Shown here in pieces: positions 24,424-29,962 of a DNA stretch of 30,445 nt (position 1 is its first letter; every line of letters starts with the position of its first letter). The notes beneath the pieces were generated by a model. That model was not told the origin of the DNA. It searched no databases and worked only from the letters and a program-made list of their open reading frames with translations. The position numbers were made by a program, and so were the translations under genes. The DNA comes from a virus. Location: the IMG/VR virus record IMGVR_UViG_3300032322_000418, positions 1-30,445 of that record; one strand, given 5' to 3'.

Positions 24424-25375
24424 GTTTTTGCTCTTCGTATTTACCTACGGCATAGTCTTTGATGATCTTGCCGTTTTTCTCATCGCCAACTAGCATTGGG
24501 TCTACCCATACTTTTTTACCTGACTTCTTCATGGTGCGCCAGTGACCACGTCTCCAATGCAGTCGGGGTGAGGCATGTGTTCCATGAGGTGTTGATGGCA
24601 ACGCTGATTTCTTGCCGTCAACTGTAATTAGCTTGAACTCAATTAAAGGTTTCTTGCCTTTGTTTATACGTTTTTTATTAATTGCAACTTCATCAGGGGT
24701 AGGTGCAGAAATATACATCTCGCCACCCGCCACAGTCAGCATGTGTATTGCTATTATGGCATGGTAAGCCATACTAGAAAGTGCGCTATCTATTTGATCT
24801 TCTTCTTTTTCGCTTGTTAAAGAAGGTTTGATTATTTGTATTTTATTATTTTCATCAATACACAATAGCGCAGTGGCTGCATAATATTTGCGCCCAACCT
24901 CATGTTGTTTACAAAACAAAACATGCAACGCTATGTGATCTGTGTGTTGCACTAAAAAACAAGAATAAATTACATTAACTAAACCATCTTGAAAGTCTTG
25001 TGCTTTAACTATTTGAGGGCCACTATGATCTCCTGTATCTGTACGTTCGCCCGAGATTATTGTAATTTTAGGAAAAGGAAGACGCAACTCACCTAATTCT
25101 TGGAGGTCTGTAAGTTTTGATGCATAGCTGTTATCAAAATGACGTTCGACAATTACTTTAGGGTATTCAAGAATACAATCAGCAATTTCTTTAGAAACAT
25201 TTTTATAGTCATTAACAGCAACACATTTATTTTGTTGAGCTAACGTGACATATTCTGTAAAAGCTTGCAATACTTTGTTCTTTATATCGGGTTCTGAAAG
25301 AGCCTGTTTAACGCTTGAATGCAAGTCTTGAGACGCAATCATCGCTATTGGGTGTAACTCATTAGCACTCGCCAT
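24410..25375 (-). CDS. Conserved phage protein of unknown function
   Basis: A 321-aa protein. The first 230 residues form an alpha/beta domain with no motif I can name. The C-terminal part is distinctive: PSTPHGTHASPRLHWRRGHW then RTMKKSGKKVWVDPMLVG (about residues 263-300), a His/Arg/Trp-rich motif that I have seen at the end of other uncharacterised phage proteins, then a KDYAV segment and a KHVHH end. It may bind nucleic acid or metal. It starts within the end of the polymerase gene (14-base overlap) with a good SD (GGGGAG), so it is translated with it. Confidence 0.6.
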   Translation of the reverse strand: MASANELHPIAMIASQDLHSSVKQALSEPDIKNKVLQAFTEYVTLAQQNKCVAVNDYKNVSKEIADCILEYPKVIVERHFDNSYASKLTDLQELGELRLPFPKITIISGERTDTGDHSGPQIVKAQDFQDGLVNVIYSCFLVQHTDHIALHVLFCKQHEVGRKYYAATALLCIDENNKIQIIKPSLTSEKEEDQIDSALSSMAYHAIIAIHMLTVAGGEMYISAPTPDEVAINKKRINKGKKPLIEFKLITVDGKKSALPSTPHGTHASPRLHWRRGHWRTMKKSGKKVWVDPMLVGDEKNGKIIKDYAVGKYEEQKHVHH

Positions 25376-27179
25376 AACTTCTCCCCATTCCCGCTTCGCA
25401 ACTCAGAGGTAGGTCTTGTGCCCACTTGGGTCGCATCTTCATACACATCTCTACATACTCTTTACCAGCTTCCGCTTCTTGCTCAGGTATTACGCAAGCA
25501 ATCGCATCATGCACAGTCATTACGACTTTATATTTCTTTGCTACATGTAACATCTGCTCACCAATGATGATTCGGGCTAAGGCTTGGCAGACGTTCTCAA
25601 TAACTTTACCGCCATATATTCTGTTAGGTACAGTTGCTTTACCCTTTCTGGTGTCGTAGACGTACTCGTCCTTGCCCTGCTCGTTCCGCATCTTGCGTAG
25701 GTTTGGATACTTCACATACAGTCCGTTTGGTAGGCGAATGCCTTTCCTGCCTTCTACTTCTAACACTCCAGTCCGACCCAAAGACATACTCTGATTGTTG
25801 ATAATGGCATCTAAGGCTAGTCCTGCTTTTCTCCACAATGCTGGTATCCAGTCATATGTTTCACGATAGACTTTGATAATGTGTGCAGTCTCTTCATCAG
25901 ATACCTCGACGTTAAAGGTTTTGAGCTGAGCCTTAAATTTCTGCGCTCCCATCCCAGACCCCGCCCCGAGAATCGTCGTTTTGCCAACGAACCTTTCGTC
26001 CTTGCTAATTTCTTCAGTTGCCTTGTTATATATAGACGACGCCATGATTCTGTATACATCTTCACCCCTTTCAAATGCATCAACTAAATCGTTTTGCTCA
26101 GCCAGCCATGCTAGAGTTCTTGCTTCTATTTGACTAGAGTCAGAGTCCACAATGACATACCCGGGGGAAGCCATAATTGCATCTTTGAGAATAGAGCCTC
26201 GTGGTAGGTTTTGTAGGTTGACCTTGTCGTCACCACCCCAGCGACCTGTGTGTGCCGCATAGTAGCGTAGCGGTATGGGGAATAAGCCTCGCTGCGCTAT
26301 ATCAATAAAGCGCTCAGTCCTTGTTTCTTCTATAGTAGACTTAACACCAAGACGCGCTGCCACTAAAGCTTGCACTACTTCGCTTTCATGCTCAAGCAGT
26401 TCTTTAAACCCTTCATCAGTCTTGGCAAATGCCCATGCTTCTTTGCCTGTCGTAGCACTAATCTTGCGTGGGGGTTCTATATTAAAGTTTGACAATAACA
26501 CCGCAAACTTGTCGTTACTCATTAAATCTTCTTTGGGGTAAATTTTAGTAAGTTCTGCTTTTCTTTCCCGAATACCATCTAGGTGATTATGTAGCGTGTT
26601 GCCATCAAGCCATAACTTAGGCTCAGTAAACATACGGATGGTCAGGTCAATTAACCGCAACTCAGAGGGAGGAAAGCCTGCACTTAGTTCCTCGAATAAA
26701 CCCATCGTCAGCACCACATCATTCTTGCAATACTCACCGTACTGTGCCAAGTCTTGTGCATTAAAATCAATCCGACGCTTACCCTGTGCCTGTAACACCT
26801 CTGTGCCTTTTACTCCCAGCCCATAGTGTTCCGCCAATGCTTTTAAACTGCCACCAACTTCATTACCATGAATGGCTCTTGCCATTGATAGAGTATCGGC
26901 AATTCCCTTAGGTCTTATATCAAACTCCCAGTTAAGGATAGCCATGTCAAACATAGCGTTGTGCGCTATCACGAGATGCTTATCAAATTCAAAGCTATCT
27001 AAGAATTTCTTTGTATCTGCTCTCGTACCGCTAAACCACTGAGGACCGGATCCTTGCTCGCACACCGCCACCCCAATCGTCTCAAACTCAGAACCACGAA
27101 TGTATTCTTCCGTAGTCATTTTGCTAAGCGAATAGGTTTGAGAGTAATACGTCTCAAAGTCGATGCAAAAGATTTTCAC
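25362..27179 (-). CDS. polA: DNA polymerase, family A, with 3'-5' exonuclease
   Basis: A 605-aa replicative polymerase. The exonuclease domain has all motifs: Asp7/Glu9 (IDFET), Asn74/Asp78 (AHNAMFD), and Tyr150/Asp154 (YCKND), so proofreading should work. Polymerase motif A is DSSQIEAR with Asp347 and Glu352. Motif B runs Arg396, Lys400, Leu404 and Ser408-Gly409. Motif C is VHDAI with His557/Asp558. Compared with E. coli Pol I, position 762 is Leu and position 766 is Ser instead of Tyr. The 5' nuclease domain is absent, as usual in phages. It is coupled to the 148-aa gene by a four-base overlap and should copy DNA with the primase-helicase. Confidence 0.96.
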   Translation of the reverse strand: MKIFCIDFETYYSQTYSLSKMTTEEYIRGSEFETIGVAVCEQGSGPQWFSGTRADTKKFLDSFEFDKHLVIAHNAMFDMAILNWEFDIRPKGIADTLSMARAIHGNEVGGSLKALAEHYGLGVKGTEVLQAQGKRRIDFNAQDLAQYGEYCKNDVVLTMGLFEELSAGFPPSELRLIDLTIRMFTEPKLWLDGNTLHNHLDGIRERKAELTKIYPKEDLMSNDKFAVLLSNFNIEPPRKISATTGKEAWAFAKTDEGFKELLEHESEVVQALVAARLGVKSTIEETRTERFIDIAQRGLFPIPLRYYAAHTGRWGGDDKVNLQNLPRGSILKDAIMASPGYVIVDSDSSQIEARTLAWLAEQNDLVDAFERGEDVYRIMASSIYNKATEEISKDERFVGKTTILGAGSGMGAQKFKAQLKTFNVEVSDEETAHIIKVYRETYDWIPALWRKAGLALDAIINNQSMSLGRTGVLEVEGRKGIRLPNGLYVKYPNLRKMRNEQGKDEYVYDTRKGKATVPNRIYGGKVIENVCQALARIIIGEQMLHVAKKYKVVMTVHDAIACVIPEQEAEAGKEYVEMCMKMRPKWAQDLPLSCEAGMGRSYGEC

Positions 27180-27622
27180 CTGCGCACCGCTTTTTTCTTT
27201 AGTCGTTGCCTTCCTTGCGCAAGTTCCTCTGCCCGTTTTTCGTAAATTTTTTCCATCTCAATTATGATTGCCTTTTTTTCGCTCTCGCTCAGCCCTTGTA
27301 GATAAGAAAGTGATAGTTCCTCTTGCACCATGGCGTCGTAGTCTACTGCATCACGTAGCAGAGTATTCATAACCTTCTTAGTGAATAGCTCGCCCTGCAA
27401 CTCTTGCATCTTCCCCCATAGGGCTTTGATTTCTTTATCGTTTAGGAACGGCAACTGATCTACATAATCCTTGCCCCCCTTCGCCCGCATTTCAACGGCA
27501 AAAAGAATGTCTCTCCATTTGGGGGGATACTTGCCATACATGTCAGGCACAAACTCATCAGGATTACTGCTCATGCGTTCAAGTAATATCTGAACACCTT
27601 TGTTCATTTCAACATCTGCCAT
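27176..27622 (-). CDS. Conserved helical protein upstream of DNA polymerase
   Basis: A 148-aa, mostly helical and charged protein (PPKWRDILFAVEMRAKGGKDYV, then ESEKKAIIIEMEKIYEKRAE, and a very basic end RQRLKKKAVRR). No motif is recognised. A strong SD (GAGGAGG) precedes ATG 27622. It starts inside the VRR-NUC gene (14-base overlap) and overlaps the polymerase start, so it is probably a replisome accessory or DNA-binding factor by position only. Confidence 0.55.
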   Translation of the reverse strand: MADVEMNKGVQILLERMSSNPDEFVPDMYGKYPPKWRDILFAVEMRAKGGKDYVDQLPFLNDKEIKALWGKMQELQGELFTKKVMNTLLRDAVDYDAMVQEELSLSYLQGLSESEKKAIIIEMEKIYEKRAEELAQGRQRLKKKAVRR

Positions 27623-27938
27623 CTGTGTCCTCCTCGTTGTTAGCCCCTGTTAATTCTTTTAGCAAATTCTCTAACAATGTTAGGTTGCTTTCATTTATTA
27701 CTAGCGTGATACCACCTTGCTTACGAATGTCAGCCATTTCTTTTTCTTGTAAGGCGGTAGGTTTGTTATCCCCTGCTTTGCATTCAATCGCAAGGAATCT
27801 CCCTTGGGTGCAACAGATAATATCAGGCACTCCGCTACGACCATAGCCATGGGTAGCAGGGAAGAAGTAGTAAACGTCGTAAGCTTTAAGTAGCTTGACG
27901 CATTTGTCTTTAACTTTCTTTTCGGGAGTTTGTGCCAT
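27609..27938 (-). CDS. VRR-NUC domain nuclease
   Basis: A 109-aa stand-alone VRR-NUC protein of the PD-(D/E)XK superfamily. Catalytic pattern: GYGRSGVPDII (Asp of PD), then RFLAIECKAG (Glu and Lys of ExK) and TALQEKEMADIRKQGG (Gln-containing helix). Stand-alone phage members are thought to act on branched DNA such as Holliday junctions, so a replication or packaging junction resolvase is the likely role. The ATG lies just seven bases downstream of the -10 box of a good promoter, with no classical SD. A CTAACAATGTTAG palindrome lies inside the gene. Confidence 0.9.
   Translation of the reverse strand: MAQTPEKKVKDKCVKLLKAYDVYYFFPATHGYGRSGVPDIICCTQGRFLAIECKAGDNKPTALQEKEMADIRKQGGITLVINESNLTLLENLLKELTGANNEEDTDGRC
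27671..27683. promoter_or_regulatory. 13-bp palindrome CTAACAATGTTAG, site 1
   Basis: Perfect odd palindrome within the VRR-NUC gene, 49 bases before the next gene start (27622). One of four copies. Confidence 0.75.
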
Positions 27939-27944
27939 GCCACC

Positions 27945-27972
27945 ATAATAACATGGTGTTGGACTTTGTCAA
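27945..27972 (-). promoter_or_regulatory. Sigma70-type promoter upstream of VRR-NUC
   Basis: On the - strand TTGACA (27967-27972), a 16-base spacer and TATTAT (27945-27950). The predicted start is about 27938, the A of the ATG. It shares CTTGACA and an AAAGTC segment with the promoter at 20645-20672. Transcription from here would supply the nuclease, polymerase and downstream genes. Confidence 0.7.
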
Positions 27973-27999
27973 GGAGAAAATTGGGTGGTGATGTAGATT

Positions 28000-28068
28000 C
28001 TCTGCCACCCTCAGAGTTAACAAGGACTCAGCTAGCGTCGAACGTATCGGGGCAAACTAGCTGAGGGT
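28000..28068 (-). ncRNA. Candidate structured leader or attenuator with competing stems
   Basis: In the leftward transcript ACCCTCAGCTAG (28068-28057) can pair with CTAGCTGAG (28035-28027, nine base pairs) or with CTGAGGGT (28014-28007, eight base pairs). The two stems share CTCAG and exclude each other. A third short hairpin CTCTG/CAGAG (28000-28016) also competes. The region is noncoding and lies between the exported peptide gene and the promoter of the nuclease gene. The rest of the gap 27939-28137 shows no ORF beyond the promoter and the palindrome. Confidence 0.5.
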
Positions 28069-28123
28069 AAAATCGTTTTGCATCTACAAGGCTACTAGGT
28101 TTTACCTATAATCAAATGCCCCC

Positions 28124-28136
28124 CTAACATTGTTAG
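28124..28136. promoter_or_regulatory. 13-bp palindrome CTAACATTGTTAG, site 2
   Basis: Perfect copy one base past the stop codon of the exported peptide gene, in the noncoding hub and 186 bases before the VRR-NUC start. Confidence 0.8.
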
Positions 28137-28137
28137 A

Positions 28138-28290
28138 TTAGTAACATACAGTATTGCAGTTACCATAATAGCAACATGTCTGACAAAATAACATCTTACC
28201 GTTGGGACTTGTTATGGTTTGAGTGGTGCAGTTTGCATATGCTACCGTAGCTATTGCACTTAACCATAAACCGATTAGTAGTTTTTTCAT
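28138..28290 (-). CDS. Small exported Cys-rich peptide
   Basis: A 50-aa gene recovered from the gap. The N-terminus is a standard Sec signal peptide: MKKLL, a hydrophobic core, and a TVAYA cleavage site, predicted after Ala19. The mature part is about 31 residues with six cysteines (21, 36, 39, 40, 45, 49) in a CxxCC and CNTVC pattern with YYGNC between, which suggests up to three disulfides in the periplasm. I recall similar short phage peptides ending in a CCYYGNCxxxC-like motif. The start overlaps the DUF3310 gene stop by ATGA, with GGAG eight to nine bases upstream, so it is co-translated. Role unknown: interference with host envelope proteins, superinfection exclusion and inhibition of a periplasmic enzyme are all possible. 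Confidence 0.75.
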   Translation of the reverse strand: MKKLLIGLWLSAIATVAYANCTTQTITSPNGKMLFCQTCCYYGNCNTVCY

Positions 28291-28745
28291 TTTGTTTTCT
28301 CCAAATTAGATATTGCACGATCAAGATACCACTTCGCCTTTTGCAAGTCCTCAAGTTTGTTACCTTTTAAATCTGCACGACTCACATACTTCACTACATT
28401 ACCTAGGTTATACCCTAGGTTTTTAGCCTCGATGAAATCAATCGTCTCAATACCCCCTGCCTTGTAGTGCGGTGGGTGATTGACCATATCGGCTTTGCTA
28501 TGGACGCTTCTATTGCTTGTAGATACTGCTACTACTTTCATACCCTTAGCATATTTACGTGCGGCGGGCTTAGGCGATAGAGCAGTCATGGGCATACCGC
28601 TTGCTTTTTTCTTTTGCAGATGCACCGCCTGATACACCCCTGCTAGTGAAACCCCTGTTGCTTGGGATACTTCCTTAGCCTTGGCATTAGGGTTTTTCTG
28701 AATGTAGCGTAATACTTTACTGCTCTTGGTGAGTTTCTTTCTCAT
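28287..28745 (-). CDS. HTH plus DUF3310 (T7 gp1.7-related) protein
   Basis: 152 aa from ATG 28745, which has GGAG eight bases upstream; an upstream ATG at 28769 would add eight residues but overlap the RHH gene by 53 bases. The N-terminal 45 residues form an HTH (LRYIQKNPNAKAKEVSQATG, VSLAGVYQAVH). A Pro/Ala/Lys linker follows, then a DUF3310 domain (VNHPPHYKAGGIETIDFIEA, then GNVVKYVSRADLKGN and LEDLQKAKWYLDRAI). DUF3310 is related to T7 gp1.7, a nucleotide kinase, so a role in dNTP supply is plausible. The HTH fusion suggests DNA binding or regulation. It is coupled to the exported peptide gene. Confidence 0.85.
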   Translation of the reverse strand: MRKKLTKSSKVLRYIQKNPNAKAKEVSQATGVSLAGVYQAVHLQKKKASGMPMTALSPKPAARKYAKGMKVVAVSTSNRSVHSKADMVNHPPHYKAGGIETIDFIEAKNLGYNLGNVVKYVSRADLKGNKLEDLQKAKWYLDRAISNLEKTK

Positions 28746-28914
28746 TTGTTTCTCCATATTGTTGAACATAATTAGCTAATACTTCCCTAATCTTTGCACT
28801 CTTGTTAGGGTAAGCGTTGAAAAAATCTGCTACTTCTTGGCTGACACGAATAGGTAGGTAAACCATTGCAGGCTTTACCCCCCTACCCCTGCCTCTTTTT
28901 ATTAGTTCAGTCAT
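28717..28914 (-). CDS. Ribbon-helix-helix-like DNA-binding protein
   Basis: A 65-aa protein. A basic N-terminal arm (IKRGRGRGVKPA) is followed by a strand (MVYLPIRVS), a helix (QEVADFFNAYP) and a second helix (SAKIREVLANYVQQYG), the order and length of RHH (CopG/Arc-like) domains. The strand would enter the DNA major groove of a dimer. I prefer ATG 28914, which overlaps the previous stop by eight bases (ATGACTGA), over GTG 28932, which has no SD. A CTAACA(W)TGTTAG palindrome lies just upstream of this gene pair, so this protein is a candidate binder. The assignment is from pattern only. Confidence 0.6.
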   Translation of the reverse strand: MTELIKRGRGRGVKPAMVYLPIRVSQEVADFFNAYPNKSAKIREVLANYVQQYGETNEKETHQEQ

Positions 28915-29116
28915 TTGGTTTATTAGCCTCACGATTTAACTTGAACAAATAATCTTCCCGATACTCGGTTGGTGGGACAAAGCCGTGCTTTCTCCATGTT
29001 GCCATTACGTCAGCACCCGTAGTCCACTTGAATCTTGATTCTTTATCTAGAGCCATAGCAGGTCTCCTTTCCTTGGGTTCTTCAACAATAAATACATGCC
29101 GTTTCTTATTAAACAT
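28907..29116 (-). CDS. Small conserved phage protein, unknown function
   Basis: A 69-aa basic protein with a KWTTGADVMATWRKHGFVPP then TEYREDYLFKLNRE core that looks like a compact helical domain; I cannot name a family. The start has the strongest SD in the region (AAGGAGG, five to six bases before ATG 29116). The 13-bp palindrome at 29130-29142 ends 14 bases before the start codon, so a bound protein could affect both transcription and translation of this gene and the RHH gene after it. Confidence 0.55.
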   Translation of the reverse strand: MFNKKRHVFIVEEPKERRPAMALDKESRFKWTTGADVMATWRKHGFVPPTEYREDYLFKLNREANKPND

Positions 29117-29125
29117 ACTTCCTCC

Positions 29126-29962
29126 TTAACTAACATTGTTAGGTAATACCAAGAAAGTGGTTTCGTTAACACGAAAACCTACACCACTAATCACTTGGTT
29201 ATCTTCAATCAATTTAAGTAGCCCTACTGCCCTACGAATAAATTCGGGCAACTCATCACTCTGTTTTATTTCCAAAGGGTCTTTGCCCTTTTGCACAGAA
29301 TAGTTTAATCCATCTATGAACACAATAAAAGCGTTGTCAGTTCGCAACATTTTAATTAGATGTTGCGTTGCATTAAATTCTTCTACTTGTGTAGGTAACT
29401 GCTCAAGATGTTTCGCAATACTAGTCTTATCTACTACACTATCCATAAACGCTTGATAATTATTAGTAATAAAGTTTCGTGCTTGCAACTCCATTGCACC
29501 CCATGTGCCTCGCAGTTTCCACCCTTTCTCGTTGTCTATCTGCGATAGCGAGTTCTCAACTTTTTGTCTAGCCTCGGTAATTTTCTCAACTACATTTTTC
29601 CTACCGAAGAACTTGTCCACATGCTTGATTGCTTTCTTGAGATGAACTGTTTTCATACCACTACCACGCTCACGCATACCCTCAATGCGATGATTGTCAA
29701 TACGATAGCGATACCCACTACCACAGTAGTCCTTGTCGATTGTGCCTAGCACTTCTCGCTTATCCTTAACGTCAAAGCGATAAGCATGATACGTTTTATC
29801 TTCTGAATTAGCAGTCGTAGCAGTCTCGACAAATGTCCATTGTGGATACTTCAAAGCCAACTGCTCTACTAGGTCTATGAGGAATGGGTCAAGCATGGAC
29901 TTTCTCTTGATCCCATCACCAAAGCGGTCATGCTCTTTCAATTCAATGTTTGCATACGTCAT
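29126..29962 (-). CDS. Conserved phage protein of unknown function
   Basis: A 278-aa alpha/beta protein. The first 90 residues contain an RFDVKDKREVLGTIDKDYCG strand region followed by RYRIDNHRI; the middle is helical and charged (FFGRKNVVEKITEARQKVEN); the C-terminus has FIVFIDGLNYSVQKG and ends in a VGFRVNETTFLVLP strand. No catalytic motif is recognised. SD GGAGAG lies eight bases before ATG 29962. Its last codons (PNNVS and stop) are written by the CTAACAATGTTAG palindrome, so the operator-like sequence doubles as coding sequence. Confidence 0.55.
   Translation of the reverse strand: MTYANIELKEHDRFGDGIKRKSMLDPFLIDLVEQLALKYPQWTFVETATTANSEDKTYHAYRFDVKDKREVLGTIDKDYCGSGYRYRIDNHRIEGMRERGSGMKTVHLKKAIKHVDKFFGRKNVVEKITEARQKVENSLSQIDNEKGWKLRGTWGAMELQARNFITNNYQAFMDSVVDKTSIAKHLEQLPTQVEEFNATQHLIKMLRTDNAFIVFIDGLNYSVQKGKDPLEIKQSDELPEFIRRAVGLLKLIEDNQVISGVGFRVNETTFLVLPNNVS
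29130..29142. promoter_or_regulatory. 13-bp palindrome CTAACATTGTTAG, site 3
   Basis: Perfect copy over the last codons of the 278-aa gene, 14 bases upstream of ATG 29116. It is the best placed of the four copies to act as an operator. Confidence 0.8.

Follow-up and report, generated by a model that had tools for sequence, protein, structure and literature searches.

The stretch of DNA analysed here (the window) is the IMG/VR phage record IMGVR_UViG_3300032322_000418 with a length of 30,445 nt. It contains a noncoding gap with a corrected extent of 27939–28137, because the adjoining positions 28138–28290 on the minus strand represent an ORF of 50 codons. The product of this ORF is cysteine-rich with a signal-peptide-like start, and no family match was found for it. 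The next gene upstream codes for a DUF3310 protein (28287–28769, minus strand), while the gene downstream of the gap codes for a VRR-NUC or Hjc-like nuclease of 109 amino acids (27609–27938, minus strand) and belongs to the same operon as the gene for DNA polymerase A (25362–27179, minus strand). The location ahead of the polymerase operon given in an earlier note on this DNA agrees with this arrangement, as the genes for the nuclease and DNA polymerase A come next in leftward direction. The operon has a minus-strand promoter, TTGACA-N16-TATTAT (27945–27972; TTGACA at 27972–27967, TATTAT at 27950–27945), with 11 of 12 consensus matches, and the nuclease gene lacks a Shine-Dalgarno sequence and is probably leaderless. 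The earlier note had counted this promoter among the elements of the gap; it is indeed present, but it sits downstream of the stems described below, so that its transcripts do not contain them. A promoter between the RNA and the following gene was also found in low-GC relatives. An inverted repeat covers the −10 element of the window (27938–27960), recurs at the same place in low-GC relatives, and ends just before the start codon without Shine-Dalgarno sequence. Both arms vary in concert among relatives (ACCAT..ATGGT, CTCTTG..CAAGAG, CCCT..AGGG and GCGC..GCGC), and candidate readings are an operator whose specificity has changed or a hairpin preventing the translation of readthrough mRNA.

The gap also holds the previously noted palindrome, which comprises 13 bp (CTAACATTGTTAG, 28124–28136) and lies outside the RNA fold. 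Four exact copies of the palindrome (CTAACAWTGTTAG) occur in the window, at positions 27671, 28124, 29130 and 30068, and 141 exact copies were counted in 83 RNA-bearing loci compared to none in shuffles; it was noted in the window, L077, L204, G002, G003 and G004. Three relatives of 64–67 kb carry 9–21 copies over about 10–12 kb with spacings of about 0.1–2.4 kb, positioned both within and between genes, and the array is limited to the early region and stops just after the RNA. By analogy, it appears to resemble the dispersed repressor (stoperator-like) sites of cluster A mycobacteriophages.

Three segments of the gap had been reported as potential pairing partners, all in leftward sense: A (ACCCTCAGCTAG, 28057–28068), B (CTAGCTGAG, 28027–28035) and C (CTGAGGGT, 28007–28014), together with a local CTCTG/CAGAG hairpin (28012–28016/28000–28004). 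All of them are present in the window exactly as described, A forming nine perfect pairs with B and eight with C. In 1000 approximately dinucleotide-preserving shuffles of a 116-nt stretch, inverted repeats of 9 bp appeared by chance in 13 and of 8 bp in 45 cases, and the combination of both with a common arm never occurred (0/1000). Thermodynamic folding of the window stretch was weak, with z values of −0.9 to −1.3 for the RNA, because the structure is pseudoknotted. As the folding energy was ordinary, only the comparison with relatives could decide, and the evidence is therefore comparative.

Viral contigs with related genes were retrieved by a nuclease search (63 contigs) and a polymerase search (80 contigs). 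Nearly all nuclease relatives contain the same noncoding element upstream of the nuclease, and a covariance model (R1) also detected the RNA in divergent polymerase relatives. When viral contigs were scanned for a pattern and then with the covariance model, 86 of the 100 scanned loci were confirmed, and two further scans resulted in 66 confirmed loci. The listings overlap, and the combined set analysed amounts to at least 131 loci with at least 116 distinct RNAs from IMG/VR. The GC contents of the RNA copies range from 0.38 to 0.68, and each of 14 RNA-bearing records holds a single copy. The match of the covariance model in the window extends from 27981 to 28096, with 100 bits. The genome types suggest a freshwater habitat for these phages.

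The comparison of the relatives showed a fold of six common helices, three of which are crossing (pseudoknot) pairings. In the window, this structured RNA of about 140 nt occupies 27983–28122 on the minus strand, bounded by the PKa 5' strand and the PKb 3' strand, as supported by the covariance model match and covariation; all of the following strands are given in the same sense. The 5' strand of PKa (GGGGCA, 28117–28122), located 15 nt behind the stop of the 50-codon ORF, is followed by those of P0 (GGTAAAA, 28100–28106) and P1 (TGTAGAT, 28082–28088), the latter being the most conserved core with its partner ATCTACA at 27992–27998. The 3' strand of P0 (TTTTACC, 28066–28072) precedes the 5' strand of P2 (CTCAGCTAG, 28057–28065), which is contained in segment A and pairs with segment B (28027–28035), and the loop of P2 contains the 3' strand of PKa (TGCCCC, 28049–28054). 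The pyrimidine-rich linker J2/3 (TCCTTGTTAA in the window, 28017–28026) connects to the P3 hairpin (28000–28016; CTCTG at 28012–28016 and CAGAG at 28000–28004), whose loop provides the 5' strand of PKb (GGGTGG, 28005–28010) for pairing with CCACCC at 27983–27988, 3' of P1. Crossings exist between P0 and P1 and between PKa and P2, and PKb links the P3 loop with a region that lies outside P1. The near-invariant core consists of CCUUGYAKAUG in P1, GGC closing the P3 loop, and AAUCUAC. In the relatives, J2/3 often reads CUCC or ACCUCCU, resembling the 3' tail of 16S rRNA, and the CUCC-type sequence also occurs in relatives without a downstream Shine-Dalgarno sequence. Sequestration of a Shine-Dalgarno sequence by J2/3 was rejected, 58 of 300 swaps being equally good.

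Covariation in related phages had been named as a check of the earlier proposal, and it turned out strong, with many compensatory changes in a conserved noncoding element. The alignment of 56 relatives was fitted to P1–P3, without fitting to PKb. Taken together, 95.1% of the cells of P1, P2, P3 and PKb are paired versus 70.9% in shuffles, changes on both sides were found in 24 of the 27 counted pairs and in 370 cells versus 102 in shuffles, and the covariation score is 0.62 versus 0.15 in shuffles. Sliding one strand by 1–3 columns reduced this score to 0.08 or less. Among the individual helices, P1 is paired in 98.2% of the cells and shows double changes in six of seven pairs, while PKb is paired in 95–99% and shows them in five of six. 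The previously proposed A:B pairing corresponds to P2, which is kept in 93.9% of the cells over the 56 relatives with both-side changes in every pair of both blocks, and the CTCTG/CAGAG hairpin is real as well, representing P3 with 91% paired cells. P0 and PKa were assessed without alignment to them, by comparing the complementarity within each of 115 sequences to that after swapping partners, and also with Watson-Crick pairs only. The values were 17.0 versus 13.1 (sd 0.27) for P0 and 19.8 versus 14.0 (sd 0.26) for PKa, with 90 and 78 distinct helices, respectively.

The types of mismatches provide information on the nature of the element. The cells of P1–P3 contain 37 G.T versus 15 A.C combinations, and the benefit from allowing wobble pairs was 25 for G.T versus 12 for A.C in P0 and 21 versus 10 in PKa. 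Unlike the other helices, PKb shows the reverse (1 versus 28), probably due to conserved bases beside the helix. Because G.T outnumbers A.C overall, the pattern speaks for an RNA folded from the leftward transcript rather than for a DNA element.

The earlier note had interpreted the three segments as an attenuator or riboswitch-like leader, in which A pairs alternatively with B or C and thereby switches transcription or translation. Although neither pairing has a mismatch in the window, the mutually exclusive A:C stem is paired in 51.7% of the cells and complete in only two of the 56 relatives, and exchanging the partners among sequences gave equal or better pairing in 24 of 200 swaps, so that A:C does not exceed this control. 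Instead of pairing with A, segment C serves P3 and PKb, and the A:C match looks like a coincidence of the window's own lineage. A two-way switch between A, B and C was therefore rejected as a conserved mechanism. Moreover, no terminator was found within 27500–29200 of the window, including the gap, so that the fold has no such competitor, and the promoter further downstream is not part of the fold. With neither conserved mutually exclusive stems nor a terminator, we regard an attenuator as extremely improbable. What stands of the proposed noncoding hub is a conserved structured element; the A:C switch is not conserved, and an origin, as discussed below, receives no support.

Most loci share the gene order DUF3310, RNA, nuclease and DNA polymerase A, the DUF3310 gene being the usual upstream neighbour. 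In the group of the window, a protein like the window's 148-aa one is coded between nuclease and DNA polymerase A, and in some loci the gene after the RNA varies. Homologues of the 50-codon ORF lie upstream of the RNA at the same place in L015, L019 and L021–L023; in other relatives, it is replaced by other small ORFs or DUF3310. Whichever gene is upstream, the 5' strand of PKa overlaps or nearly abuts its stop codon (median distance 6 nt; the few larger distances reflect the choice of a wrong frame). Upstream of the RNA, there is no promoter signal (5.5 versus 5.7 in shuffles), and a strong one follows downstream (8.7 versus 5.9). The downstream region contains either a promoter of the TTGACA/TATAAT type, sometimes together with a terminator, or a Shine-Dalgarno sequence and a start codon. 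A start codon with a Shine-Dalgarno sequence follows 15–50 nt behind the fold in 60 of the 116 distinct RNAs, which corresponds to the position of a 5' UTR; this does not apply to the promoter type including the window, nor to L142 and L411. In L080, L106, L132, L146, L225 and L411, an intrinsic terminator stands at the end of the RNA, and the window has none of its own. L411, a sound member with 62 bits and a PKa of 9 bp, is the locus that combines its own terminator, starting about 3 nt past the RNA, with the lack of a dependent gene, since the next gene, for a primase-helicase, is convergent. In L142, which forms a single lineage with L411, the RNA directly adjoins the stop of the primase-helicase gene, which is convergent here as well. 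In L016, a deletion upstream of the nuclease removed P2, the 3' strands of P0 and PKa and part of the 5' side of P3, and P1 and PKb are still present; this may be due to faulty assembly, or it may be a real variant indicating that the RNA is dispensable.

Because the fold is kept together with a separate promoter, with a terminator or without any gene behind it, its function is probably independent of the downstream gene. The explanation we prefer, giving it an even chance, is a new class of structured phage RNA, which is transcribed leftward in the early operon and probably released as its own RNA. The fold would be part of the early operon transcript, from which it would be set free via termination or processing, and the released RNA would then act, as such or in an RNA-protein particle, during replication or the early stage of infection, instead of switching a single gene on and off as a leader. 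This fits with the single copy per genome, the 5' end at the upstream stop codon, and the lack of an own promoter signal. Points against a released RNA are the leader-like spacing of 15–50 nt in 60 of 116 distinct RNAs and the order of DUF3310, RNA, nuclease and polymerase kept in most loci; in addition, L142 and L411 are one lineage only, and L016 may mean that the RNA is dispensable. A trans-acting triple-pseudoknot RNA that is excised from the early transcript and is catalytic or forms an RNA-protein particle, for example, a self-processing ribozyme or the RNA component of a particle for replication or counter-defence, appears rather unlikely to us. The main rival is a cis-acting leader, i.e. 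a riboswitch or a protein-binding (autogenous) operator controlling translation of, or readthrough into, the nuclease and polymerase genes, which we consider possible, if doubtful. The fold lies 15–50 nt from the start codon in about half of the distinct RNAs, the neighbouring genes are conserved, and the size and conserved core of the fold would suit a ligand- or protein-binding domain. However, the window's group has the gene promoter downstream of the RNA, terminators part the RNA from the gene in several loci, and no co-directional gene follows it in L142 and L411. Furthermore, J2/3 shows no specific match to the Shine-Dalgarno sequence, and the terminators, where found, share no bases with the fold.

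Two other explanations are less likely than either a released RNA or a leader. Processive antitermination, in which the nascent RNA would bind RNA polymerase and cause readthrough of the following terminators, would agree with a single copy in mid-operon in the early phage region and with terminators just downstream in several loci. We nevertheless consider it quite improbable: the put RNA of HK022, with its two stem-loops in about 70 nt, lacks pseudoknots of this kind, the present RNA has no Rfam match, and the terminator of L411 ends the operon, with nothing beyond it to transcribe in that direction. Less convincing still is an origin of replication next to the replication genes, as suggested in the earlier note, or a structured RNA primer at this place; we assign a very low probability to both. 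Although the gap is a noncoding hub and the RNA nearly always lies near polymerase or primase genes, the GC skew in three relatives of 64–67 kb flips about 10 kb away and only where the gene direction changes, no DnaA box is present in the gap (their number in the window is at chance level), and the wobble bias indicates an RNA function.

With the window as query, no Rfam 15 family reached the gathering threshold, the only match being a chance one to sR51 on the other strand (E 1.1), and 12 divergent relatives gave no Rfam 15 match at E 0.5; these searches included the known ribozyme families in Rfam. A tRNA or tmRNA was rejected, as ARAGORN gave no gene model. The open-licence papers searched contained no description of the RNA and none of an RNA beside DUF3310 or VRR-NUC, with the 224 motifs of a 2017 survey covered only via Rfam. 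Named phages gave no useful DNA match, and the nearest named polymerase relatives tested, KPP25, Rollin and RHph_TM3_14A, do not contain the RNA. None of 80 pattern-bearing bacterial contigs was confirmed, and no RNA was found in 399 and 369 bacterial genomes, which is weak evidence because of the strict filters. We therefore rate the RNA as a previously undescribed class, new in family and architecture. A complex RNA fold under strong selection across copies of 38 to 68% GC is rare, and it is carried by abundant, poorly studied phages. At about 140 nt, with its secondary structure worked out and many natural variants, it also represents a compact testable object. Proof of a ligand- or protein-binding leader would make it a new class within a known kind, and action in trans or self-cleavage would make it a new kind of phage RNA.

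Several known systems share some of these properties. The translational operators of genes 32 and 43 of phage T4 are small and gene-specific, that of gene 32 being pseudoknotted, and likewise represent structured leaders beside replication genes; the present fold exceeds them in size and persists in loci with another downstream gene or none at all. Processive antitermination RNAs are known with HK022 put and the EAR element of Bacillus. The latter, also called epsC RNA, is a pseudoknotted RNA located in an operon ahead of terminators, as is the case here, but host range and sequence are different and the present RNA has no match in Rfam. The structured manA and wcaG RNAs of cyanophages were also discovered in aquatic phages by comparative genomics (PMC2864571), with genes and folds different from ours, which matches no Rfam family. 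Finally, the put RNA of HK022 is about 70 nt long, folds into two stem-loops and is present in two copies, putL and putR, near the early promoters (PMC9378689). Both would be folded nascent RNAs of a phage early operon, but the RNA described here comprises about 140 nt and six helices with crossings, and it occurs as a single copy in mid-operon.
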